A stretch of 64,000 nucleotides of DNA from Branchiostoma floridae (lineage: Eukaryota; Chordata; Leptocardii; Amphioxiformes; Branchiostomatidae), in NCBI RefSeq assembly GCF_000003815.2, contig NC_049989.1, forward strand, positions 8,851,400 to 8,915,399, written 5' to 3'. Numbering within the stretch: the stretch's first letter is position 1; the number at the start of each line of letters is the position of its first letter. The position numbers were made by a program, and so were the translations under genes. The notes beneath the pieces were generated by a model. That model was not told the DNA's origin and did no database searches. It was given only the letters and a program-made list of their open reading frames with translations. Below are positions 23,763 through 60,900 of the stretch, piece by piece.

Positions 23763-26700
23763 CTGGAAAAACACCAATGATATTGGTCAAATCAACTATG
23801 GCTGGTCACCTATGATTGGCATCTTATCCTATGTTAGCTCTACTTCACTCCTCTGAATGTTTCTCTGGCTGAATAGTCTGGCATTGTTTATTATAGAGGA
23901 TCCAAATCAAATATTCCTAAAGCATAAGGGACAGCTCTGATTTGCTTTGAGTCACAGGCTTTCAGAAGTTTGATTCTATTTATGTAACAATTGCTTCCGA
24001 GAAATTTTTAATATCCAACTAATGAAAAGCATGAGGGCCTTGCATTGAAGCATCAGGGGAGCAAAATGGAGCTAGAATAGTTAGGATATCAAGCTAAATA
24101 TCTTGATCTTTTTGACCAAAGTCTCATGACTGCTTCCTTTGAACAGAATACCATACAGTAGATTAACCCTTTTTCTCTTGAGGTTACCCATTTGGTACCA
24201 AGTTTGTTTTCACAGTGGTAAAGGTAGTGAGAAGCAGGGTTAAAATGAGAAACTGCTACATGTTGGTCTCCTTCTACTGATGCTATAAACAAGGTCATGT
24301 GAGTTCTTCCAGTATGAAATAACCCTCTTAGGAGCAATAGAGGTGTTCCAGGAATGTGCGTCGCCGTCCTGGTAACAGGAAAGGAAGAAGCGGTGCTGTT
24401 CGCTGACGTCAGGGTGGCTGAAGAACTCGCTAATCTGGAAATCGGTGTATTTGGGGGAGGCACAATAGATACATGCATCATGAGCCTTATTGTTTTAACA
24501 AGGTTATGTGAAGGAGAGCAGACTTAGATGTCTAAACTTTAGGAAACCCATACTCACCTCCTGGTATGATTTAGCCTAACATGGACCTTTTATGTCAGAC
24601 AGGCTAACCTTGTCTGCCATACAACAAAATGGAAACAATTTTTGGCTATCATTTAAGCTAATCATAAGAGAAATCCTACAGAAGACAAATCTAGCAAACC
24701 AACATCTTTAGCATAACTGTCATCCCTTAGTAAGACGGCAGACTCGGCTGTATATTTCCCACACTTACTCAGCCACTCACACAGACAAGTTTATCCTATA
24801 TTAATGTGGCTTCTTCAGTGGTTTTGGCTCTAAATCTGGCATGGAATGATATGCAACTGCAAACATTGTGCACTCAGCGCTCATTTGAGAAAGAACCACC
24901 AATTCACAAGAAGTTGCATCAGTGAAACTGGTCTGCGTGAAAAAATGAGAAGTTTGTGGCTATGGGGTGACTTTAGTGCAAAAGATGTTAGCTTTAGTAT
25001 TAGTCTGCTCCACACATATCTTTTGACAGTTTTACAAAATGTAGTAAAAAAGGTGATTGCTCTGTAGTGATTATCTTCATCGTTAGCACTAGCAGAATTC
25101 AAGAAACTTTGGTGAGAGCTTGCAAGAAACATCAGTATGATACCCAAATTGATACTTACTGGCATCCACTGACACTTTGATACTTCCTGCTCACATATAG
25201 TGATGTCTACATTCTTGGGCTTCATGTGGCAGACAAAGTACATGTCAGAGCAGCCGAAGGAGAAATTATGCTGGTGTCGAAAACAGAGAAGAGACAGGAA
25301 CTCTGCGTCAACTCCTGTCTCCTCCAGGACCTCTCTTCTGGCTGTATCTGCAAGGTCCTCTCCTGTGGAAATAATGGAACCAATGTCATGTCAACTCAAT
25401 ATCAACTTTCATAATGATATGGGATATTGTGCAACCACATTAGCTTCTTTGATAAATTCTTGATGACTTATCAAGAATGGCTTGAACATCTAGGGGCTTC
25501 AAAATACTGTACATAGCATGTTGCCCAGTTGCACCGTGGAAATGTTAAAAGGTTTAAGGTTATGATATCTATTAATGATAAGCTGATTTGTGCACTTAGA
25601 TGACCTTACATGTCTATCCTTTTACATCCCTTGAGTGCTTTGTCCAGCTCTGATCAAGGACTGGTTAAAACCTTGTTCTGATTGCTTTATCAATCACCTG
25701 GTTCAGCGAGGCCACCTGGCAGTTTCCAATGGGCCTGCATGGAGTGGGTATACTTCTCCTGGATCACAAGAACCTCATTCTGATCGTTCACCACAAATCC
25801 TGCAACACCTGTGTTTGAGTATGAATAGTTTCATCAGGTAGGTACATATACATCTAAGGGCATCAACAACATTCCCTACCACAACCTTTTGGTAGTCCTT
25901 ATCAGCTACCTTTCTAAAGGCCGCGAATAATGACAGGATCAGCTTCTTGTACCTAGGTGGCACTGTGGTCAGTTTTGCACTCCAAAACAATGTTACATGT
26001 AAAAGCTCAAGACATTATTTCCCTGAGGAATGTTACAGTAGCAAAAAGACTACCAAACATTTGCAAATGAGAACTGTCATTTAAATGGTAAAAGAATTGT
26101 GTAAAAGCAAATGAGGTAGTTTTTCAAAATCTCCAAGCAGATCCTACGGTGTCATAAGAAAGCATCAAAGCTGGCCAAAGGGAGTCAGATTGGAACCAAA
26201 GCATAAATGCTCCTAGTCCGGCTTCACTCTTCTGCCAGCTTTTGATACTATCTTATGCTATCTGTTATAGGATCTGCTTGGAGATTAAGTTTTTCAATCA
26301 GTAATACATGTACTAGGGATTTACTAGTATATCTCAAAGCAGTCGGATGTTAGGAGCATTACGTTTTTCTAGGTTACTGTTGAGAAGCCTACCTACCGAC
26401 ATAGTGTGCTGCATACCCTGGGATCATGTTAGGTTCGTCTGTAGGCAGCCACCTGATCATCATGACATAATCTTTGTGGGCATGGTGGAATTCAAACCCA
26501 TTCTGTAAAGGGAAAGATTGCATACAATTTTGGTGACATGGAAATAAATGCAGCCCTTTTGCACTGATATCATAGTCCTTGTGATGAGGCAAACTTTAAT
26601 ACTATATAAAAAAAAAAACTTTTCAAGCTTAATCAGTAACGGTTTGCTTTGCATTAAAATGAGAGGAAAAAAGACTGACCTGAGCAGCAATAGGGACAAT

Positions 26701-29069: not shown

Positions 29070-32000
29070 ATGGACAACCTGAGTCCAACTCAGGTTCCAG
29101 GTGAGTCTCTGTGATGCAGTGCATGGTTTGGATTTTAGTGTGAGGGACTAAATTGAACTAACTGCGTAGGATTTGAGTTGGTTTTCTGACTAAAGAAAAT
29201 TTACAGTCCTCCGCTATACCTCCTTTGTCTTGGACGTTCTATACATTTCTGATTTGTTTTTTTCCTGAAAATGAATTTCCTGAAATAGAGCATCGCCGAA
29301 CGCTTTGTTCTTTCCCTCTAAAGTTTGTGAAACAACTTCATGATTTACTTCTAGTATTCATCCCGAATCTACTGCACTGTTTTGCATAGAGCCTGACTGC
29401 TTTGATTTTTATTATATAATTAGCATGTTTATTTGGTATGGATATGTAACTACTAATTTATGCATGAGAGGTTTTGTGTACAGATTGGTAGCAGAACCTA
29501 CCTCAGTTTGATTTTACTGAGTTAACAGCTAATGTAATCTTTCTCAAACTACTGTAGTTTTTACTCTATTCTAGTGACTCTAGTCTAGGTATGATTTATG
29601 TTAAAAAAAAAAAAGATTTTACTGTAGAATCAAATGAAGAATGTGAGGTACTTCAGCTCGTTGTGATGTCAGCTGTGCATCAAAAAGGCAAAAGAGGCAA
29701 TATCTGTATCTATATAGCAAGTATAACAGCCCTTCAGGCTTAACTCACCAGCTTCGCAGGCATGTGGTGCTGCAGCGCTGCTGGTTATATTACACTTCAA
29801 AGGACCTGTCACATCTAACTTTTGCACATCTATCTACAAATGTTCTTAAAAACTATCCAGCAAAGATGACGATAACAATAGTGAAACGCCGAGCCCATTC
29901 CAATTTGTGACAGGGCAAAAAATAGGTAAACGCTATTTAAACTTAAAGGCGATTTTGAAATTTGTCAACCTCCTACTGATCTAAAAATCTGGCTGGCATT
30001 TGTTTGAATCATGAGGCAAAGTAGCTTTGCCAGGTCTTACTACCATGTTGATATGTTCTGCAGACACTACACATGTAAATCCCCAGGGAATGTACTTACA
30101 AAAAAAAATCTCAGGCTCATTTTTGGTTGTAATAACATAGAACAACTAGAAGTATGCAGCATTTAAGGCTATCCTGTATGGGGTAAAGCTGAATGTTTGG
30201 TGTCTCTTTTTCCTAAATACATGACCTTTCTACAGAGGGGAGACCGTTGAGAGACCATCCAAAAATTTGACAAATCTCTCAGTCTCAACAATCTTTAAAA
30301 CTTGAGTGCTCAATGATATCTATCATCCAGTGATTCATTGATCTCTCAGTGAATGCAGTGCATGTTATGAAAAGTATGAATGAATGGTTGCCCTCAGTTT
30401 GGAAGGTTTTGAGGTTCCTCAAAACAGCCTCTCAGGCAGCAGTCTGTGAATGTAGCAGTCTTTCAATGAGTCACTCAGCGATCTCTCATTCTCAACGGGC
30501 ACTCAACGGTCTCACCAGACGATCTGTCCAAGTCAAACATTCCTCAATGAACACAACGTTTTTGGTGAATTTTCAGCCCCAACGGTGATTGGTGAGAGAC
30601 TGTGCTCCGCATGAGAAATTGCTGAAGGACCATTGAAAGATCAGCAAGACATTTATGAAACTGGCTGCTTGTGCAACCTGAAGCATAGAAGTGGTTAATG
30701 CAAAAAGTTGCAGACCCTCAATTGCTGATGAACAGGCTGCAAAACAAGATCTACACCATGCCTCCAAAGAAGTGGGTCAAAATAAATCCTCCAGCAGCTA
30801 CTCCTAGTCCTATCCTTGCCCATGCTCCTGAGGAATCCAGTGACTCTGAGGTCTCCGATGTCACTGGCCTGAACAAGAAGAAGAGGAAGGACAAGACTGT
30901 GGCAACGTTGTCTGAAGAAGAAGAGGAGGTCATGTTGCAGTGGCTAAAGCAGCACCCAGAGTTTTACAACAGGAGGATGATGGAGTATAAAAACATCCAG
31001 AGGAAGGAGGCCCTGTGGCGACAGAAAGCATCAGACATGGGGAAAAGTGTGGAACATTTAAAAACCTGGTATCGGAGTATGAGAACGAGGATGGCCAGGC
31101 TTCTGAGGAATAAGGCCATGAAAACCAGTGAAGATCTAACAGACAGGGACACGTGGGTGATAGAGAACTTATCCTTTCTCAGAAAGCACATTGAAGCTGT
31201 GCACAGGCGGCCAATAAAGGGCGTGAGTATTTTCATCTTGTTTGCATGCGTATTCTTTCCACATTTCAAATTGTTACAAGTATGCATATCGTATCATTGT
31301 CAGTTTAATGTTTTTATCTACATCAATAATAAGTCTGTATAATGCAAGCTCTGTCTGTCTAAGGCTCTATGGTTCTGACCAATGGGAGGGCTGCTAGAAA
31401 TGCAATTTGATCCAACTCTAAACTCTGGTGACTTATCAAAATTGTATCATTTCAGATCACTCAGAGATCTGCCCATACAACTGGACAAGGTTCTTTTGAC
31501 TCTGTCATCTCCATTAAGACTGAAGCTGTCTCCGATACTACAGAAGCACCAGTCAGCAGTACATCCACGTCTACAGTCCCTAAGATTCCAGAACTAAGAA
31601 GGCCAGGTGAGCAGGACAGGAGCACCCTCGAGGGCCTGACCAACCATGTAATGACAATGCAAAACCATCTCATCAGCCGTCTCCAACCACAGGGCGACCA
31701 GGAGAGGCTGGCGTTCTCGGAGTGGGTACGTGCGAGCCTGGTCGGCTTGGAACACGACGTGTGGAGGCAGACCCAGAGGGAGATCACGGAAGTCCTCTTC
31801 CGTGCGATAGCGGAGAACGACGCTGCGAGAGAATGGCCGTCACAGGTTCCAAACCTGACCCCTGTCTGGGCTTCCACCAATCAGGAGCGGCAACAGCAGC
31901 AGGTTCATCACGTGAACTCCCAGAGTCCTGTTCCTCAGTCTCAAGTTCAAGAACAGACAAGGCCTAGATCCGCCCCTCCTGCCACGTCTACCTTCGACAA

Positions 32001-35000
32001 TTCCGACGTTTCGCAGGACGTCAGCGGGTTCATTAACAACCTTCTTCGTAACTTTGATACGAGATACAACTTACAAGATACGAGTTGACTTAGTGCTGTA
32101 TTAGTTTGTCATACTCATAGTCTTATGTTGAATTAAATAGAAGTTGAACTAAAGGTCGAGTCAGTTGAATGTACATTGAATTTTACAATAAAAAGCTTGA
32201 TGGTAGATATACTAATATTGCAATACAGTATTTTGCACAAGAGCAAGATTAAACAGCTGATGAACTAAATGTACAAATAACCGTCAACAATGTTTTTAAA
32301 CATCATGATGTTAGACATTTTAACTTCGCTTTTTACAATGATGCAAAGACAATTTGATACAGTGTAACTGTTTTTTTTTACGAGTTAGATAGGATAATAG
32401 TGAATTGCTGTATTAGTTAATTTGCCCCTAGATTAAGATTGTGTCTTTGGTGCTTCCATTTGTAACGCTCAACTTGGGGTAAAGTTAGTGTTCTTATGCC
32501 TTTTAGCAAGCCTAGATGTGCAAATGCATCTGTAGGTATTTCAATGGCATGACTTATATATGTTGTATTATCATTTCTAACAAGAGTATGAATAAATCCC
32601 CACTGCAATGACTGTTTATGAATGTCAGCTTTTGTATCATTACTATTTGATATGAAACCTCAATATGCGATGTCTACAAAGCCAATGCAATAGGTTTCTG
32701 ATAATGTTAATTGCTAATGTAAATTGACTTTTGTGCTATGTAACATAGAAAGTTGATTGACGGACTAAGTTACAAGTCAAACTAGTGAGAATGATAAAAA
32801 TATTCTTTAACCATACAACATTTCATGTACTAATAACTATTATAGTCATTGATAACCCCCAACCCCTGATCTGACTAATACCTTATGAATACAGTAGTTC
32901 ATCTTACACCAGTAATGACTCTGGCTGCATCAGTTCTAGTTCCTTCATCTGAGGGATGCCTTATGCAGGGACTGAACTTCTTATAATAGATAGATCTCCA
33001 GAGGACAGGCTTTTAGCCATGCATGCGTCATTGCATCATCTGGACGGTCTTTTCTTAAAATAGCACAATGTTGGACGCACTAGACGCCTTTACTGTTACA
33101 CTGGGGAGCAGATCCTCTGACAAGCAAGAAATTCTGTTTGACCAGGGATGCCACTAGGTCATCTGTGGTCTCAGTCATCTACTGTGACCTCTCTGACAGT
33201 AATTTTGGACCCTCTATAATAAAATCCTAGCTAAAAGACTGCCAGAGGAGCTTACGGTGCCAGGTTATTTGACTGAGTAGGCCTTCTTGGATATCATTGA
33301 AGAGGTTTATCAGTCACATGAGTAAGTTTATAGAGTAATTCTTCAATCAGTGACTCTGGAAAACTCATGTTTCAAGAGTCGCTAATTGAAGAATTATTCT
33401 ATAAACTCCCTGCATAGGCTGTGAACCATATAAACACTTCGAAGTGCAGTGTAAATTGTAACAAGTGAGCCTGATTTTACCAATGGTTATTTAGACAAGA
33501 TGAACACGAATGGACCCTAGCTATCCCATCTCAATTAATGTACTCCGCCTGTGTTTGGGTTAAGCAACTAGAAAACAGGCTTGTGTATATGTAGCAGCAT
33601 GACAGCACATTCCTTACAATGTATGAATTGGAATGGACTATTTGTTGACAGTTCAGAGGGGGGTGAGGGGGACACATGTAATTAATGCCATAATTAAGGC
33701 TACAAACAATCCCTTTATGGTGCAGGTTTCTCTGTAACTAAGACTCAAATGATTTGTTCCAGTCCATACTTGCCAAAAAATAAAACTTAAAAACTAAAAA
33801 CTTAAAAACTTAAAAAATAAAAATAAACATGACAAACATGAATCATTGAAGGCGCATCACCATTTATTTCCCATAATGATTTATGGAATCCTTAGTTCGG
33901 GGAGTACTTTAAAAAAAAAATTAGATTTATCTCAAGTTCATCTTAAGCTGGGTATTAGCAAAGACCAAACACCACGGAACAAGCAAAACCAGTTTACTCT
34001 CTGGCTCTCCCCTTGAGAGAAGAACATAGGAAATTTGAACCTGTTGTCTTTAATTCCAGGAACATCCAACACCTACTTCCCCGTTCAACACCAACTAATC
34101 ATGGCATCACCCGCTGGACACGTTAACCCCTCGTCACTGCCCGCCTTGGGAGGACTCATACCAGGCGCTCATCTGTTGGGCCGCGGGGGTCCTGTGCCTC
34201 AGAGCAAGTATGCAGAGCTACTTGCTGTTATAGAGGACTTGGGGAAGGACATACGACCCACCTATGCTGGTAGTAAAAGCTCCACAGAGAGACTAAAGCG
34301 AGGTGGGTGCAATAAATGGTTCCCCTTTTTAGATGTTGTTGTCTTCACTTCTTTATCATCTGCACTTACTAATGTGTTGTTGTAGTTGTGAGATGCATTT
34401 GACATTAACCTTAATCATTGTCTTTGTATATAACATTTCCTAGTGTCACTTATCCTATTAACAGTCTACATTGCTGTAACAAGTCATGAACTCCATTACA
34501 TGCTAGGAGATACCGGGTATTGTGTCTGTACTAAATCATCATACGATTGGACACATTAATCATTTTTAATGCATGCATGGATTACTTAATTAGTACTTAC
34601 ATTGTTGCCTCAGCTACCCATACACCCAGCATGCAATGGGACCTGGGATAAGCTTTATGCAGGGTTAGATTGAAGGAAAAACTCTTTTCTTTCTTTTCTT
34701 TTCTTACCCATGACAAGCTCTCAATTCCTTGTTTGGCCTGAGTTGTTTTCGGAGCTAACTTGTGTGGTGTGTGCCATATGCCTGTGGAGCGGGCGAGGGT
34801 GGCAACTCCTGTTGTGTTTTCTGTCTGTGCAGGTATTATCCATGCTCGGGCCCTGGTCCGCGAGTGTCTCATGGAAACTGAGCGCAGTGCAAGATCCTAA
34901 GAGATACAACAGTGCCAAAGAAGATATGAAAGAAAGCCAAAAAATACACACAAAACTGCCAAAGAAATTTTTCTCCTATTTATTTTTCTCTCCCCGTCTT

Positions 35001-35078
35001 CCTCCCGCAGCAATTATTCACGCGAGGGCGTTGGTACGAGAGTGTCGCATGGAAATGGAGCGCAGTCAACGGTCATGA
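29070..35078 (+). CDS. CDK2AP1: CDK2AP1/2-type protein (DOC-1 family), 113 residues, alternative last exons
   Basis: CDK2AP proteins bind CDK2 and are small subunits of the NuRD complex. Exons: 29070-29100 ([10 protein letters not shown]), 34060-34302, then 34833-34900 or 35011-35078. All three junctions are phase 1 and GT/AG. The core [20 protein letters not shown] with [17 protein letters not shown] is near-identical to vertebrate CDK2AP1, and [11 protein letters not shown] completes the conserved dimerisation helix. Both versions give 113 residues (human CDK2AP1 has 115). The exon 1 assignment rests on phase, the ATG and a strong donor; it bridges a 4.9-kb intron that contains another gene. 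If exon 1 is wrong, the internal ATG at 34101 would start the protein. CDK2AP1 versus CDK2AP2 orthology is not resolved; the ancestor may predate the split. Confidence 0.88.
29101..30757. other. CDK2AP intron 1, left part
   Basis: AT-rich to about 30200. From 30240 to 30620 there is a dense set of short repeated motifs (ATCTCTCAGT, CAACGGTCTC, GAGAGACC) resembling transposon subterminal repeats, just ahead of the MADF-type gene. I found no complete TIR pair. Confidence 0.45.
30758..32088 (+). CDS. MADF/Myb-SANT-like DNA-binding protein, 365 residues, nested gene
   Basis: Exon 1 is 30758-31222, exon 2 is 31456-32088; both junctions are phase 0 (donor GC|GTGAGTAT, acceptor CATTTCAG). The N-terminus is basic and Ser/Glu-rich ([32 protein letters not shown]). 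It is followed by a MADF-like trihelix with aromatic anchors: [45 protein letters not shown]. The middle is Ser/Thr/Gln-rich. The C-terminal [13 protein letters not shown] could serve as a BESS-like interaction motif, but this is weak. MADF and Myb-like proteins occur as transcription factors and as the second protein of PIF/Harbinger transposons; no DDE nuclease is next to it. An upstream in-frame ATG at 30698 is possible. AATAAA lies 100 bases past the stop. I do not recognise a named orthologue. Confidence 0.82.
32187..32192 (+). terminator. Poly(A) signal of the MADF-type gene
   Basis: AATAAA about 100 bases after the stop codon, in AT-rich sequence. It suggests the nested gene has its own transcript end inside the CDK2AP intron. 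Confidence 0.6.
32193..34059. other. CDK2AP intron 1, right part
   Basis: AT-rich intron. It holds a foldback at 33325-33407 (separate entry) and simple A-rich sequence with AAAACTTAAAAAC repeats near 33780-33830. The pyrimidine tract and AG of the next CDK2AP exon end at 34059. Confidence 0.5.
33325..33407. repeat. Foldback with about 33-bp arms
   Basis: AGTTTATAGAGTAATTCTTC at the left is inverted at the right as GAAGAATTATTCTATAAACT, continuing through the GACTCT/AGAGTC pair with few mismatches. The loop is about 17 bases. Probably a MITE remnant. Confidence 0.7.
34833..34900 (+). other. CDK2AP1: CDK2AP terminal exon A
   Basis: The acceptor TCTGTCTGTGCAG opens a 68-nt coding end, [20 protein letters not shown] then RS and stop. 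This version is closest to the vertebrate tail (RECLAETERNARS). Confidence 0.85.
35011..35078 (+). other. CDK2AP1: CDK2AP terminal exon B
   Basis: The acceptor CCGTCTTCCTCCCGCAG opens a second 68-nt coding end, [20 protein letters not shown] then RS and stop. Length, phase and protein match exon A, while third codon positions differ widely. Only 110 bases separate the two, so use of B requires skipping A. Confidence 0.85.
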
Positions 35079-35245
35079 CGGACTAAACAGAACTGAACAG
35101 GACTCGCTAGTACATTGCTAGCACTAGCCATGCAAACATTCACTTTGTACCAATGGTATACTTTTGATATGTTTTTGAACTGTATTTAGTGATGTTCACT
35201 AGAAAAGTTCAGGGACTTAGATGTTCCGAGTGCCAGCTTATGGTA

Positions 35246-35383
35246 GGGTCACATTTTCAAACTGAGGCTTGGTCGTGCAGTTTGCAGGAACAAGAAGTGT
35301 GATATAAAACATGAACTGATTGTCATGACCATAATTTGTATACACTTTTTTTCCGGCTAGGCCTCAGTTGGAAATTGTGACCC
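35246..35383. mobile_element. MITE in the CDK2AP 3' region, TA target duplication
   Basis: TA-GGGTCACATTTTCAAACTG at the left pairs with the right end, whose inverse reads GGGTCACAATTTCCAACTGAG. TA flanks both sides (35244-35245, 35384-35385). It is 138 bp and probably lies in the 3'UTR or just beyond, after terminal exon B. Confidence 0.75.
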
Positions 35384-37750
35384 TATCATTAGGGAAGGAC
35401 GTTGTACCAACCTTAGTTTTATGTGTAGGGTCGGTACGTACCTGTAGAACCTATAACTTCAATAATCATGTTTTTAATTTAACTACACAGTAGCACAACA
35501 TTAAGTTTATTGGTATTCCTAGGTTGTCATACAGCAAGATGCCATGTTCCTTGTCAGACTAGAATTTTCCTCTGACCCTGACTCCTACTTTTTATATATG
35601 CTACATGTGAGTTGTCTGTATGTTAAGTACCTTTGGCAATTCTGCTAAATTTGGGACGGTAGCTTTTCTTGGAAACATACTTGAATTTATTAGGGATGCA
35701 GTTTGCTATCCATATCTACATGTATTGAACTATATCCAAGAGCAGTAATACATATTAAGTTGTGCCAATTAAGCATTAGGAAAAATGTATGTATGTTCAG
35801 CTATTACTGAATGTTGTTATGCATCTTTATGGACCAAGAAAATTAGTTTTCTTACTGTTTCTGATTCTACCCCAAACACCTTAGGTGCTGATAAAGGACT
35901 GTGTAGCTTTACTATGTGTGCAACTTTGTAGTGCCTGTATTACATAACAACAATGCTGTTGATGTAAGAATAGTCCTAAATGTAGAGCTTGTTGAAGACA
36001 AAAAGTATGAACATCATACTGGCACATTTCTCAACATCAGTAAACTGTATTTACATGTACAAATATTGTCAGTATTTGTTTGCTTATGTTTGTGTGTGTG
36101 TGTGTGTGCGTGTTTGGGATTACACATTGTCTCATTGTATGTGAGTAGCCTGTGTTTACACAATCTCTTGCTTGCTAGGTGAGAGACTTGAGACTTGCGC
36201 GATTTTAGTCAGGCTATAGTCTGAAGAGTAAGAAATTCACAACCCTAGAGCTGTGTAAGGGTATACCGGTAGTCAATACCAGAACCCTAGTGTACCGGTT
36301 CTGTACCTATATAATCCAGAACACATGTGACCATTCACATCAAGGGACTGCCTGTCTGTCACTTCGCACTACACAAGGGAACTGACAGAAGAATTCACTT
36401 TAAAATTCTAAAATTTGTTTAGGTACACAGCTCTACACAACCCCTCATTCATGCTCAGGGTATTACATGTAGTAGACATTATTTCCATACTGGCCTTAGC
36501 CAAGCTCAATATGCCATGAGCTGAGAGGTCCCACCAAAGTGAAAGTCAAATTGTTCCACCAGTATTTGCATCCTGTCCTCCAGACAAAGGTATGCCAATT
36601 GTGATGATACAGACCCTTCACAGCAGAGGGGGCTAAATTACCAGTAGTCATTGGAAACTGCACAAGTCTCTCCCCATCTTACCACATACATTAGCCTGAC
36701 TTGTAATACATAACATCCATTACTTTCAATGAATCTGATTTACTCCGCCTCCCTTGAACCAGATTTGTACCTATCATACCACTAGGCTTTGTGAATCGGA
36801 ATCATCTGGGTGAATCCAGGTCAGAGAAACCTGGTATACACAGGGTCAAAGTCACACTTCTAGCAGCCCTCCTACTGGTCACATAGACATTAACTATCAT
36901 CATACAGCACCTGAGTGGATAGAAAGCCTTGTCAAGAATATATAAAAATGTATTCAACAGGAAAAGCAAATCACTTGACCATTTGTGCCATACTACAATG
37001 AAACAAGACATTGGTGAGTATATCAAGAGAAAGAATCTTATTTACTCAATTTCTTATTTTTGCTGCAGAGAGTGGAAGCAGAGAGCAAGCAACTTGCTTA
37101 TTTCCTTTTTTTACATGTCTACAACTCATGCACTTACAAACATCAGGTTAATCTGTGCAATCAAGCTGCAATTCCCATGATGAATAACATGAACTCTAGT
37201 CATTAGCCAAGCATAATTTCCTGGTGGATTTATATAGTTAAATTTGTAAATACACTGTACTACTGGTCATTCTAGTAAAACCAACATCATCTTTGTTCCT
37301 CAAAATATTGCAGAGTAAATTTGCCTTCACTGTGACATTCTATTTATCTCGCCAGTTATCATTTCTAAGCATAAGCAGATGCAATTGTCAATGCTCACAG
37401 AGTATTTATAACTAGGTGTCTTTGTCTTTTGTAGACTGACTAGTATCTTTTTGGCAAACAGAATTATATTTAATATGGCATGATTGATGACTTGAAGAAT
37501 AAAGGCAAGGAGAAGTTTGATCTGACTCTTATCTCTCTTAGTGCAGTACCTAATCAAAGCAGTACATAGACCCACTATCACAGTAGTTGTTATACAACAT
37601 TTCTCTGCAATATGAGCTGGAATTCTGAAAGGCTTTAAAACATACCAATGACTACTATGATTGTGTACATGATGTGCCTTACTTCTCATTTCATTGACAA
37701 TCATTTCTCAACTGATTTTCATTATATCACCATCCTTCTGCGCATGTCCT
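35384..37750. other. Convergent intergenic region CDK2AP / MTRFR
   Basis: This space between two gene 3' ends should contain both 3'UTRs. A (TG)n tract lies at about 36085-36112. I found no exon or RNA gene; reading frames here are short and have no recognisable product. Confidence 0.5.
36085..36112. repeat. (TG)n microsatellite
   Basis: A short run (TTTGTGTGTGTGTGTGTGTG) in the CDK2AP/MTRFR intergenic region. Confidence 0.85.
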
Positions 37751-38640
37751 TCACACTTCATCATCAGATTCTTGCAGGAGCTGTTTAAAGGCCCTTTTCT
37801 TCTCCAGGTTCTTGTTGGCCTTTTTCCGTTTCTCTCTTTTTTTGATGGCGAGTTCTCTCTTCTCCTTGACCAGCTCACTCTCCTGTCCCTTCAGATGTAG
37901 ATCTAGTTTCTCTCTCATATGCTGTCTGGCTATCTTCCTGTTTTCATCCAAGGACCTGGTTTGGTGGCACTGTGATAAGAGGGATAAAAGTTGTTGAAAT
38001 TTTTAAGGGTTTACGAGACAAGCAAACAATTTTTTTGTAGTATTAAATGAATGTACACATATGTTTCAATCAAATACAGTGGTTCAAGAAAAAAAAGCAA
38101 AAACAAAAAAACAACAACATATATTTCAATATTTTGTAACTTGTGTTCACAATTATTATTAAAAGCAATATGTTCCAGAACACACAAAAGTCCCACCAAT
38201 GATTCCCACAACCTGATGATTACAAAATGGAATGATCATTGAAAAATGAATTGTGTTATGTTTTACTTGGACATGCGAAATTTCAAGTTGTGTTGAATAA
38301 ACCAAAGAAAGGAACAAAAGTCTACCTTCACTACAATGCCAGTCGGGACATGCTTCAGTAGTACACAGTTGTTGGTCTTGTTGGTTGCCTGTCCACCAGG
38401 TCCCCAGCCACGCTGAAAGCTCTCTTCCAACTCTGACTCTACTAGTTCAACTAAACTCTTTTTGGGTTCTTTTCTGCTGCTTGTCCAGCGAATGGAATAC
38501 TGTTGTAAACATCTTGGTGGATGTTGTTGTCCTACCAAAGTCGCCTTGCAAGCTGACAGCAACGAGAATTGTCTTTGTAAACAACCATAAAACAGCGGTG
38601 TTAGCTGTAGGTTTTTGGCAAGTAAGGTCAAAGATGTCAT
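37751..38640 (-). CDS. MTRFR: MTRFR (C12orf65): mitochondrial GGQ-motif ribosome-rescue factor, 177 residues
   Basis: MTRFR is a mitochondrial matrix protein of the class I release-factor family that lacks codon-recognition domains and frees peptide from stalled mitoribosomes. Exon 1 is 38640-38326 and exon 2 is 37969-37751, joined in phase 0. Residues 1-60 are a basic, Arg-rich mitochondrial presequence ([27 protein letters not shown]). [15 protein letters not shown] carries the catalytic GGQ at 82-84. [12 protein letters not shown] and [16 protein letters not shown] are near-identical to the human protein. The C-terminal [17 protein letters not shown] is the basic tail that enters the mRNA channel. 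Human MTRFR has 166 residues. An in-frame ATG at 38703 would add 21 residues; I prefer 38640 because the presequence then begins normally. Confidence 0.93.
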
Positions 38641-38703
38641 GTTGAACAGTTGTACATGAATGAAAAGTGACTGAATTGTCCAAATATAATGAAAAGTGCA
38701 CAT

Positions 38704-39186
38704 AAATTGCTCAAAAGTCGATCGATGGCAATTTTCTAGTCTTGTTCAGCCATGTTGCAGGTCAGAGGTGAATGGTTGAGACTAATACCCAAGAGGGTGA
38801 TTAGTACACATAACAAATTTTGTATACTAGCAAGAAGCTCCTTTATCCTAGCTAGCTGAGACTGTAAAATATTTTCTTGACAACAGTTAATCTTTATGTG
38901 GTTAAGAAAATTTATGCGAGCCAATATCGAATATTTCTTGTGACTGTCGAAAGATTTGTGATTTAAGTCTCCCATTTTGACTATGAAACAGTCTGACCAA
39001 AAAATAATGTTTCAAGAAGTGTGATTGGCTATGAGGTTTAGCAAACAACCAATCATGTGGCCGGATTAAGTTTCAAGACATGTTATCGTCCCGCCCCGGG
39101 CTCTTTTGCAAATATAATGGCGGCGACCGTGATGAGAGACTTGTGCAAATGGTGCTTGAAAACTCCACGCTTTCACTCGGTCGCAG
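38704..39186. promoter_or_regulatory. Divergent promoter MTRFR / MPHOSPH9, with possible MPHOSPH9 leader exon
   Basis: A CCAAT box and an inverted ATTGG (39023 and 39049 area) plus CCGCCCCGGG lie between the two genes. At 39117 ATGGCGGCGACCG opens a short frame ending at a good donor (TCGCAG|GTGGGC, 39186), and an acceptor TTCATAACAG lies at about 39503. The spliced frame stops at 39545, before the MPHOSPH9 start at 39614, so it would be an upstream ORF of roughly 37 codons. The leader exon is inferred. Confidence 0.5.
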
Positions 39187-39613: not shown

Positions 39614-42600
39614 ATGGCAGCTGCTACAGATGCTAAACCACCGTTCGACGGCGATCTAACCACTGACAGTGGCTTTCTCTCACAAAATCCGCTCACAACT
39701 ACACAACTGGACGTTACGGTTGAAGGGCTGAAAGAGGAAGAAAACTCCTCGGTAACAACGCCTGCAAATACAGCTGGTGATGTCGTTACCACAGAGAATG
39801 GGGATCCAGGGATTGAAGATCTTAAGAGTTCTAACGGCAATGCAGGTCTTAAGGACACCAACACAAAGACCACAAGCCATTTGCATGGTGAAAGTTTGCA
39901 GACAGAAGCTCCAGGCACTGAGGACCAAAACTCAACACAACAGGAAGACAGTGGACTGGTGGAAATGGCAAGCAGGGCCAGCAGTGACACAATCTCACAG
40001 ACAGGAAGTGAACCTAAGGAGGATGTAACGTTGCAACAAGATGGAGGGCTTGGGAAAACGGAAGGTCAGAAGTCGCTTCCTGAAGACGTTGGTAAAACAA
40101 GAAGCCCAAGATTATCCGGTAGCCCTTGGGACAACAGGACAAGTCCGTTAAGTTTTGATCAACATTCTCCTGTCACTCCGTGGCCGCTGGAAACCATGAG
40201 CGTTTACGTAGACAAGATGAGTGAATATGAAGGGGAGGGGAGGAGAAGGATGCTGGAAGAGCGGTGGCTGCAGCTGTTCCAAGAAATGGAGCTGCGCCAC
40301 CAGGAACACATGCTGGCTCAGCAAGAAGCACATCAGCGACAGATCCGACACATTCAAGTTCAGATTGAGCGAGAAATGCTTCACCACCAGTTGAGGCAGG
40401 ATAGGCGGATTGACAGCGGCGGGAAAAACAGTTCTGGGATTGGGTCTTCACGCGGGAGCCCCGCAAAGGAAGAGCAATTTGTGATCAAGCCTATCGCAGA
40501 AAACCGAGCCAGACAAAGCAGTAGTGCCACAGATATTGCAGACAGCTTAGAAAATGTTTCAAGGCAGACAAGTAGAATAGAAGATAACAGTCCAGAATCA
40601 GTCGGATACAACAAAAGTACACCTTTCCCCCAACAAAGTGTACCACAGATGCAGGTTACTGATGCTACTGACGAAGATGAAGATTTTCCCAGTGTTTCTA
40701 CTACCAACACACCCAAAGCGAAGGAGCATAAATCAAATGGACTACATGGTCAGAGTGAGGTTATTGCGGCACAGTGGCCATTGCGTGAGCCCCCAAAAGA
40801 CACTCAACTCACGAAACCGTTAACAACTTGGTCAAAGAGGCAACAATCTGTTCAACAGAAATCAAGAGACGATCCAAAACCACCAACTGATTCCATTAAA
40901 GCAAGAAACGAAGAGGAAGAGGTAAACAAGTTTTATCCAAGTGTGCCGTATAGTCGATACCCAGCTCACGATGCACAGATTCTAAAGATAGGAGAGAACG
41001 GTTCTATAACGGAAGAGTTTGTGCCAGCGGGGCCAGTGGAGAGTGTAAGTCCATCTACAACAGTGTGCTCGGGATTCTCGTACTGGAAGATGGATGAAAA
41101 TGAGTTGTACCAGAAGCTGCCGGATGATCTGACGTTAAACGAGGTGTCGGTAGAGTTGTCACCTCCACGAGGGGTAGTGCCATCCCAGCCACTTCCTGAA
41201 AGGCACGCTCGTTCCCAGGGCACTGAGGGCCAAAGACAACCTCCTTCCCAGGGTCAACTGCCACCTGATCCAATGAAAGTTGCACAGATGACTCCAGGTG
41301 GGGTTTGTGTCATTTTAATGTTGACTTAATTATGAACACCCCTATATATAAAGCGTTGTCATAAGGTACTAGTAGGTACATGTAGTTATAAGTCTTGGTT
41401 GCAACGTTAAGACAAAGTACCAGTCTGGGTTAAGATTTTATTGGAGTATCAACTTCTCAAGTATGTGTTTATGAAGTTATATTTTAAAGAACAATGAATA
41501 CCTGAAGGTATAAACAAACAAGTTTCTTGTTTCTGACAAGATTTTTTTGCTTTAATTAAGGTACAAAGTTGAAGACTGAGCTTCGAGATAGGCATGAAAA
41601 AATGAAGGCTTACATGGCGGACGTGGATATGACCTCTGACCCCACAGGAACAACCAAAGATCCCTCCCTTACTGAGGATCCAGTGGTCGCATCAAAGTAA
41701 GTTATAATTACCGAAGTAATTTGAAAAAAAAATCTATTATGCATACTACTTTGAAAGGTTTGGGTTTATATCCAAGTAGAGTAGCCTACACTATGTAATT
41801 CCATTTATAATTAGATATTCCAATCTTATTTGTTGATTCTCAAGCAAAGAAACCGTTGTGGCCTCAATGAAAAACTCCTGGGAAAAGATGTATCAATGTA
41901 TCAATCTTTCTTCGTATAGGTACTTTTTGATATTATTCAGATACAGTGTACATGTACATTCATTATGATAGAAAGTCTAATGTAGGCTTGATGGTGATGT
42001 ATAATGTATTGCTATATCCTCTGTTTTAAAACTCTTTGTACTTTCCCACTGCTTGCCAGTGAAGCAGACAATGAGTAAGTATTTTTGACGGTTAAACCCT
42101 TTTCCCATGCCTTTGTTGACAGTGTATTAGGTACAACATAGCGTAATAGACCTTTAGGCAAACATGGTCTTTTGTACATACCTGCGTGTACGTGTACATT
42201 GTGTGGGAACAATGGACCCTGCTCCCGTTAGGTGACCTTAGCTCGGCCTTAGCTTTGTGAAGCACAGGTGTTTTTGATGTTCCCCTTGGGACATTGTAAA
42301 ATATTCATGTAGGTTAATATGTATAGAATTAGAAAGTATCTCTAGCCTGCACTTACTTTTCAAATGTATCATACGTATATAAAAAGATATGATAGATTTA
42401 TTTCCATGTTCGTGTCAGTGTCATCAGCAAGGACAATGGTATGTGGCACCAGTAACATGAAATGATTTTTACAATGGTTCGATATACATCATCAGAGCTC
42501 AAAATACATATTATGTAGAAATGATTTCAAGGAAGAAAAACTATCTACCATTGACGAATGAAGAGCATAATTTCAGTTCCTAGTACTTGTTGTTCGTCCG

Positions 42601-57930: not shown

Positions 57931-60900
57931 TCAGAAATCTCTGCAGGGAATGATGAGCGGCTGTCCCAACGATATTGGGTCCTTGTCCTCGGAGAAGAAG
58001 AGGGTGTTGTGCTGGTAGTAGCAGACGATGCTGACCATCTCTTTGAAGTAGTGCTTGCCGATGAAGAAGCGTCCGTCGGCGGTGGTCTCTATGGTGAAAT
58101 GATGGATTTTGTCACAGAAAAGCACGGAAAGGACAAAGTCTCCGACCTGTGCCGAGTGAAGGAAGGGAGAGTCTTTGTTTAGGGGGTTATTCCGACCCCA
58201 GCACTCCTTCTTTCCCCTCCCATCTGATATTGATGACTCATTTGAAACGTTTAGCATTTATTCTATTTACAAGTAACAAATCTGATCAGAACCCTTTCAC
58301 TACTTGTAACCTCAATTTCTATTCTGCAAACAACGAAAATCATATAAATAGACGGACTCTCTTCAGAGCAGTACAAGGTACACTTAGACACATTGCTTTA
58401 TCTATGTGCAATAATATTAAAGATGTAAGCATACAATTACTTTTGCTTCATAATATATTTTAGCTATGTAAAATACCCTGAGATTAACACTCAATGCAAA
58501 TATGTTTTAATCGTTTGTCAAAAATGACCTAAACTTAAAATAAAAAGATAGCCAAAATATAGCTTGTACTAAACTGAGAGTTGAGCTCACCCTATGTGTA
58601 CTCTGCCTCACCAAGAAGTCCCTGGACCTGGCGTAACGGAGCAGTCTGCTCTCCGCCTCATGCCGGCTCAGCCGACCATGGTACCAAGGTTCCGTCTCTG
58701 CAAACATGCATAATTAATTTAATCAGTGGTTGTTTGAATTATTTCATAGTTGACTTAGGGTCTGTGAACGTGCCAAAGGACATCAAGCGTTCCTTCCTCC
58801 ATTCAAAAATAAGTTTAATTAATTGGCTTTTACTTTGAGCCATAAGAAAAAAGATCGTGGTGTTTTGTGGAGTAGCACGGCTAGGAATCAGAGTAGGCCC
58901 CAGGGACAGACATGTCGTTTTTGTCAACAACATTTACCTTTCTCATCGAAAATACGGAAGTTAACAATGTTACAAATAGGGCAGATTTTTTGGTCAAAAC
59001 ATCACATGCATGGGTATCCTAGGAAAGACAAACCAACAAGCCAGTCAACGTTTGTCATATACATTAGACAACAGCTATGTCCAAATCGACAAACGAAGCC
59101 ACAGGCAATAAAAGTACAAACAAACAAGCTATCTGGATATCTGTAACATTTGATCCACTGTATACCCTAGCTGCATAAAAGGACGCCGCAGAAGCGGTGG
59201 GTTTCCTGACAAAGACTGGTGCTGTACTATCAGTCAATCATTAGGTAAGTCAAACATTTTCTTGAGTAACATTGAAAACCCCTGCTCCTGCAATATAAGT
59301 AATCAACAAGATGCGTGACTTACCGAAGCCGAAGTATCGGGGTCCCCTGAAGGCTGAGTGAGAGATGGGAGAAACCCTGTGCCCTGGCACACGCGGCTGA
59401 GAATGCTGAAGAATACAGTAATAAATATAAACAATGTTGATGAAATGCTTTGTGGATTTATGAAAAGGAAATGATGATTTCCTTGAATACTTAAAATTGA
59501 ATAACACGTAATGTCTGCTGTAACAGTCTTATACAAAGCGTCACACTGATTTGAATCCATCGACAGCCATATTTGAGTACAGCATCAGTATGTTGCTGTG
59601 TGTAACAGACGTGCAATGCACGGGACCTCCATTGTCATATGTATGTGTGGCGGAGAGTTAAAAAAACAACTATTTCAGCACTAAGGACAGGCCAAAGTAA
59701 AAACTTTGTCAATGATAATAAAACAAAAAGACAGGAAGCTAGTACACCGGCGTACCTTTACAACCTCCCAGTAGTCCCCCGGGACCCATCCCTCCACCAT
59801 GCCGATGCGCACGTACCACCACCCCCGGGAGTTGACGTCCAGCAGCTGACCGTGGTCACCCTTACGGCAGGAGATGCACCCGTCCAGCGTGGCCGTGTAG
59901 TCACACACCGCCACCACTGTAGCGAAGTTCCCGTCATAGGGGCTCTGTGAAATACAAAAGTCACATCATACAGTGTCACGCCTATCTTTATTTCACTAAG
60001 CCTTGGGTCCCCATCCTCCTACGCACGGTCCCCAATCGGCTAATTGCCTATGTGGGGACCCTGCCACCCCCGGTTACTGACCGCCCTGCTTATAAATATC
60101 AATGAGCTTACCCTTATATGGGAGGCAGGCAATTTAGCACCCAATCAGGACTTTATGATACCCCTTTTGAAAACTGAAAGGCTATTCTCTGATTGGCTGA
60201 CAGCTAGTTTGTGGCGACGCTCACAGTAACAACCGGGAGTGGCCCTTCAGATAGCAGGGTCCCCACATAGGCGATTAGCCGGTTGGGGACCCTGAGTAGG
60301 AGGATGTGGGCCCCGCACAAGGAGGATAGCCCTGTGGATCAAATTTTCTAAACGGTACCAGCCAATGCATGGTATAAAAAGGGGTTGAAAATTAGTTTGA
60401 ATTTTAATACAACACCTCACTCACTCACTCAGTCCCGTAGTTCTGATGGCCGAAGGGCAGTAATTACACCTAGAATTACATAATTCACTGCTCAGCAATC
60501 CCTTTTATTATATCCTAGCAAAATGGAAATTACAAGAACGCATGTCTGATAATGGTAGTAATGACTACTACATCATCACAAAAGCAAAATCATTATACAA
60601 CTTTTGATGATTTAAAAATGAAGGGAAACTTATAGATCAGTTTTAGATTAGTTAGATTCGGTTTTCGGGAAAGGAATTTCTGAAAGGATTAATCTTTTGA
60701 TACATACCCAAAGAAGAATGTATGGGTCTTTGATGTCTATGTAAACAATGATTTAGGTTTCTGTGTCATGTGTATGATGAATCCGACGTTCTGCTATCAG
60801 AATAACACTTAACATCACGTTCCCCACTTTCCTCATGTGAAAGTATTTACTCAGCTTACGTCGATGTAGGTTAGACATCCAGGTAATAAGATACGCCAAA

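Follow-up and report, generated by a model that had tools for sequence, protein, structure and literature searches.

The CDK2AP gene on the plus strand of a 64-kb stretch of the Branchiostoma floridae genome (NC_049989.1; the whole stretch is called the window below) carries two similar terminal coding segments, which raises the question of whether one gene makes two versions of the CDK2AP C-terminus and how a choice between them could be made. An exon at 34060–34302, which encodes 33 residues of the conserved CDK2AP part and ends in a good donor, is followed by two segments, 3a and 3b, that are 68 nt each, lie 110 nt apart and are both in frame with the phase-1 exon ending at 34302. A preliminary description of this DNA had given these coordinates, the segment length and spacing, the phase-1 junction, the open frames and the stops, and all were correct on re-computation. 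The features of the locus are:

34060–34302, plus strand: CDK2AP exon upstream of both tails, with an ATG at 34101, a phase 1 end at 34302 and the donor GAG/GTGGGT
34683–34712, plus strand: upstream UCUU-rich tract with five TCTT, a possible pyrimidine-tract repressor site for 3a
34833–34900, plus strand: tail copy 3a, the putative canonical tail, 22 residues then stop, its acceptor tied at rank 10–11 of 3998 window AGs (approximate matrix)
34901–34967, plus strand: A-rich, GAA-containing spacer, 3′ untranslated if 3a is used and intron if 3b is used
34968–35010, plus strand: pyrimidine tract (37 of 43 pyrimidine) and acceptor of 3b, ranked 1 of 3998 (approximate matrix)
35011–35078, plus strand: tail copy 3b, the putative derived tail, 22 residues then stop

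A CDK2AP gene with a duplicated tail

Both predicted proteins match the Pfam CDK2AP family (PF09806) well above the cut-off of 26.2 bits, with 76.9 bits for the 3a protein and 71.7 bits for the 3b protein, and Cys105, a feature of the family, is present in both tails. A search against solved domains, run with the 3a protein, returned those of human CDK2AP1 and CDK2AP2 (PDB 2kw6 and 2m1l; E 1.2e-25 and 1.6e-24), while the 3b protein was compared with the human proteins by alignment. A pattern search for the CDK2AP domain in contig collections from viruses and prokaryotes gave 145 and 251 matches, none of which tblastn confirmed, as expected for an animal family.

Tail to tail with CDK2AP, on the minus strand at 37751–38745, lie pieces of an RF-1 domain gene with GGQ in its translation (Pfam E 2.2e-9 for one piece, while a further one, at E 0.006, misses the cut-off), which is probably MTRFR, and a long plus strand frame starting at 39614, without a Pfam match, may presumably be MPHOSPH9-like. 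The human gene order is MPHOSPH9, MTRFR, CDK2AP1. The neighbours may fit conserved chordate synteny, and the CDK2AP gene may be a plain orthologue of the vertebrate genes. A MADF (Myb/SANT-like) domain gene lies just upstream of CDK2AP on the plus strand (30771–32088, E 2.2e-8, one intron placed by eye), and NUDIX, SH2 and SH3 domain pieces are found on the minus strand at 24884–25390, 57934–58257 and 59684–59965, respectively.

Compared codon by codon, 8 of the 22 sense codons are identical between 3a and 3b, 10 differ synonymously only and 4 change the residue (G/A, L/R, T/M, A/Q); the five differing positions given in the preliminary description are thus reduced to four. The two copies share 49 of 68 bases. 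In ungapped six-frame scans of the window, 3a against 3b scored 85, with the next best stretch at 24 or 25, so their likeness is not due to chance, and neither a third tail nor a repeat of the exon-2 domain was conspicuous within the 64 kb. In the 40 bases that precede each segment, 3a and 3b match at 9 of 40 positions, which is chance level, and in the 40 bases downstream at 17 of 40, slightly above chance (P 0.017) and perhaps a trace of the duplication.

Two further observations concern the fine structure of the copies. Six consecutive degenerate codons are identical between them (34862–34888 and 35040–35066), whereas of the 11 other degenerate codons that encode the same residue in both copies, 10 differ (post hoc permutation P 0.006). 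Gene conversion fits this block poorly, as three residue-changing base differences fall inside it; a shared splicing element, or chance, is possible. Separately, the reading frame that contains 3b stays open over 134 codons on the plus strand (34674–35078), back through the spacer and 3a, which is probably chance.

Selection and age of the duplication

The preliminary description had proposed an old exon duplication kept by selection on both copies and a comparison of dN with dS between them. By the Nei-Gojobori method there are 12.5 synonymous differences over 15.7 sites (pS 0.80) and 5.5 nonsynonymous differences over 50.3 sites (pN 0.11); synonymous sites are saturated, leaving the NG86 dS undefined. 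In estimates that are wide because they rest on 22 residues, dN is far below dS by both YN00 (0.18 and 0.84) and maximum likelihood (0.11 and 2.1). When the 19 observed changes were placed at random in neutral simulations, only 2 of 200000 runs gave four or fewer residue changes. Had one copy evolved neutrally throughout, the expected number of nonsynonymous changes would be about 21 at a dS of 0.845 (Poisson P for six or fewer, 1e-4) and 53 at a dS of 2.12. It is therefore unlikely that either copy was neutral throughout, although an unconstrained share of up to ∼56% (dS 0.845) or 22% (dS 2.12) of one copy's history is compatible with the data. Taken with the intact frames and the kept acceptors, the contrast between pS and pN supports an old duplication in which both copies spent much of their history under selection.

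The same divergence bears on whether the tandem arrangement is an artefact of assembly, with two haplotypes, or the exon of a paralogue, placed side by side. Saturated synonymous sites and unalignable upstream introns are unlike alleles, and the window contains no N, so we regard such an artefact as highly improbable.

Probable competing 3′ splice sites and rival readings

All 3998 AGs on the plus strand of the window were scored with an approximate matrix, by which the 3b acceptor is the best of all (score 10.0), the 3a acceptor lies in the top 0.3% (score 7.8), the acceptor of exon 2, before 34060, takes rank 30 and the next best AG within 34303–35100 reaches 2.3. That both acceptors rank this high, when the flanks before them are no more alike than chance, suggests that the two sites have been maintained. 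The 3b tract is pyrimidine-rich to a level reached by 9 of 63957 window 43-mers (overlapping ones and itself counted), and a motif scan, likewise approximate, placed a branch-point-like TTTAT 29 nt upstream of 3b and found no yTnAy motif between −60 and −15 of 3a.

These signals weigh on the two readings in which a single tail is in use. If only 3a were used, 3b would be a once functional copy whose constraint is now loosening within the 3′ untranslated region, which would suit the fact that all four residue differences are departures of 3b from 3a and from both human paralogues, and neutrality for up to about half of the history of 3b is compatible with the data. However, 3b possesses the top acceptor of the window together with its 43-nt pyrimidine tract, its frame and stop are intact, and 18 of its 22 sense codons are identical to those of 3a or differ synonymously only, so we consider this reading improbable. 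The converse, in which mainly 3b is used and 3a is a relic, draws on the stronger acceptor, the pyrimidine tract and the branch motif all belonging to 3b; a relic would hardly keep the residue of both human paralogues at each of the four differing sites, as 3a does, or an acceptor still so near the top of the window AGs, and this reading is very unlikely.

If both tails are used, the question becomes what kind of choice the gene presents. The seven GTs in 34833–35010 include none that is donor-like, the best scoring −0.11 versus 5.88 for the donor at 34303, and both copies end in stops, so that the downstream donor of mutually exclusive internal exons is not found here. With no credible donor after it, 3a can hardly serve as an internal exon, and a pair of terminal 3′ splice sites in competition is likely. 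The sequence shows the structural features of homologous alternative terminal exons: two homologous segments in the same phase, each with its own stop and its own acceptor.

The preliminary description had offered alternative splicing or polyadenylation as the source of two tails, and of these polyadenylation as the driver became less likely. In that case, 3a and 3b would be separate terminal exons, with the 3a form ending at an earlier poly(A) site in the gap that separates them. A scan of 14 poly(A) signal forms between the copies found only AATACA (34943) and AAGAAA (34930 and 34962) after the 3a stop, and no AATAAA or ATTAAA. AATACA and AAGAAA are weak variants of the poly(A) signal. On the plus strand AATAAA is missing as well from 35079–37497, the 2.4 kb that follow the CDK2AP stops, so this gene may rely on weak signals in any case. 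Besides the missing AATAAA and ATTAAA, the size of the gap speaks against a poly(A) site within it: it measures just 110 nt, 43 of which are the pyrimidine tract and acceptor of 3b, and we hold a choice by polyadenylation to be distinctly unlikely. The lack of a credible donor after 3a, together with the lack of AATAAA and ATTAAA between the copies, makes competing 3′ splice sites likelier than a cassette exon or classical mutually exclusive exons.

The explanation that we find likely is that an old tandem duplication of the last CDK2AP coding segment left the gene with two terminal 3′ splice sites that lie 178 nt apart and compete with each other, with exclusive tails. Splicing from 34302 to 34833 would give the canonical tail and leave 3b in the 3′ untranslated region, while splicing from 34302 to 35011 would skip 3a and give a tail with G94A, L106R, T109M and A113Q (human CDK2AP1 numbering). 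The stop in 3a closes the reading frame and no credible donor follows it, so choosing one tail would exclude the other with no special mechanism needed. By the same rough scores the distal acceptor is very strong and the proximal one weaker, a combination that speaks for regulated or mixed use. The sequences, frames, selection signature and splice signals are observed; from them we infer that both junctions are probably used, that their use may be regulated and that the tails may differ biochemically. Homologous-exon substitutions are described as ancient and over-represented among human splice isoforms seen at the protein level (PMC4465641), which, as far as that account goes, makes use of both tails more probable from the outset.

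As to how the choice might be regulated, the spacer (34901–34967) consists of 38 A and only 6 T among its 67 bases and contains GAA/AGAAG-type motifs at 34918–34936 and 34962; such T-poor stretches are not very rare, as 321 of 63933 window 67-mers show. Judging by its composition and motifs, the spacer could possibly act as a splicing enhancer that would be exonic for 3a only. Folding of the RNA from 34780 to 35079 gave no stability above that of shuffled sequences (z 0.84; 155 of 200 shuffles as stable), leaving an RNA-structure switch between the tails unsupported. A scan for bacterial promoters and terminators found none, which is uninformative for an animal gene.

Two predicted tails for one dimerisation domain

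When the two tails are aligned with human CDK2AP1 and CDK2AP2, 3a matches both human proteins at the four differing sites and 3b does not, and both tails depart alike from human at two further sites (Met for Ala107 and Ser for Asn112; the human tail ends at residue 115). As far as these two human paralogues show, 3a would represent the canonical form of the tail and 3b a derived form. The preliminary description had placed the tail in a dimer helix, in agreement with the published account of human CDK2AP1, in which residues 61–115 form a homodimeric four-helix bundle with the C-terminal helices as its flexible part (PMC11875312). In that account CDK2AP1 is described as a CDK2 inhibitor, Cys105 is considered essential, yet its change to Ala disturbs the dimer little, and Thr109, Glu110 and Arg111, in an end pocket, are cited as having been put forward as a CDK2 site (PMC11875312). 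CDK2AP1 is also described as a component of NuRD (PMC7736783).

One of the four differing sites lies inside the proposed CDK2 site and one near it. Residues 109–111 read Thr-Glu-Arg in 3a and Met-Glu-Arg in 3b; both tails keep Cys105, Glu110 and Arg111, and 3b has Arg106 and Met109. The 3b protein retains Cys105, an 11-residue stretch and the exon-2 part and so would probably still fold and form dimers, and its changed residues would probably alter the end pocket and with it the contact with CDK2. One could go further and suppose that splicing switches between a CDK2-binding 3a form (Thr-Glu-Arg) and a 3b form (Met-Glu-Arg, L106R) that would dimerise and enter NuRD without binding CDK2, with 3a/3b heterodimers as a third state; we regard this full scheme as doubtful. 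The interpretation given in the preliminary description is, as a whole, partly supported.

The pair is best filed with homologous alternative terminal exons, an already known kind. As described in PMC9882654, KRAS 4A and 4B are likewise two serial alternative last coding exons of which one or the other is used, giving a signalling protein alternative C-termini. Unlike the CDK2AP copies, which alter a folded dimer region, those of KRAS alter an unstructured membrane-targeting tail, and 4A is proposed to derive from NRAS (PMC9882654), while the CDK2AP copies, 110 nt apart, look locally duplicated. The Drosophila genes pip and PGRP-LC similarly have tandem terminal exons or 3′ regions with exclusive use, with eight repeated clusters in pip versus two copies in CDK2AP, and the choice in PGRP-LC reportedly involves competing RNA structures (PMC9013439), of which CDK2AP gave no signal. 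COE/EBF H2a–H2d provides a chordate example of tandem duplication of an exon for part of a helix-loop-helix dimerisation motif; in contrast to the CDK2AP copies, which exclude each other, the duplicated exon of vertebrate EBF is included additionally (PMC2394523). Literature searches of partial coverage found nothing on CDK2AP or CDK2AP1 in amphioxus, lancelet or Branchiostoma and nothing on CDK2AP1 with a 'TER motif'; isoforms of the gene may have been described in other animals.

A further comparison may be drawn within the family itself. Human CDK2AP1 and CDK2AP2 share the family and the tail with this gene and likewise give more than one domain version per genome; each of the two has the Leu and the Thr that 3b lacks. 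The human versions are two separate genes, whereas one amphioxus gene would give two domain versions. Exon duplication would give one animal two versions of a domain that in vertebrates is spread over two genes and, if both tails are made, their four differences would provide a natural separation-of-function pair for the CDK2 and NuRD roles of CDK2AP.
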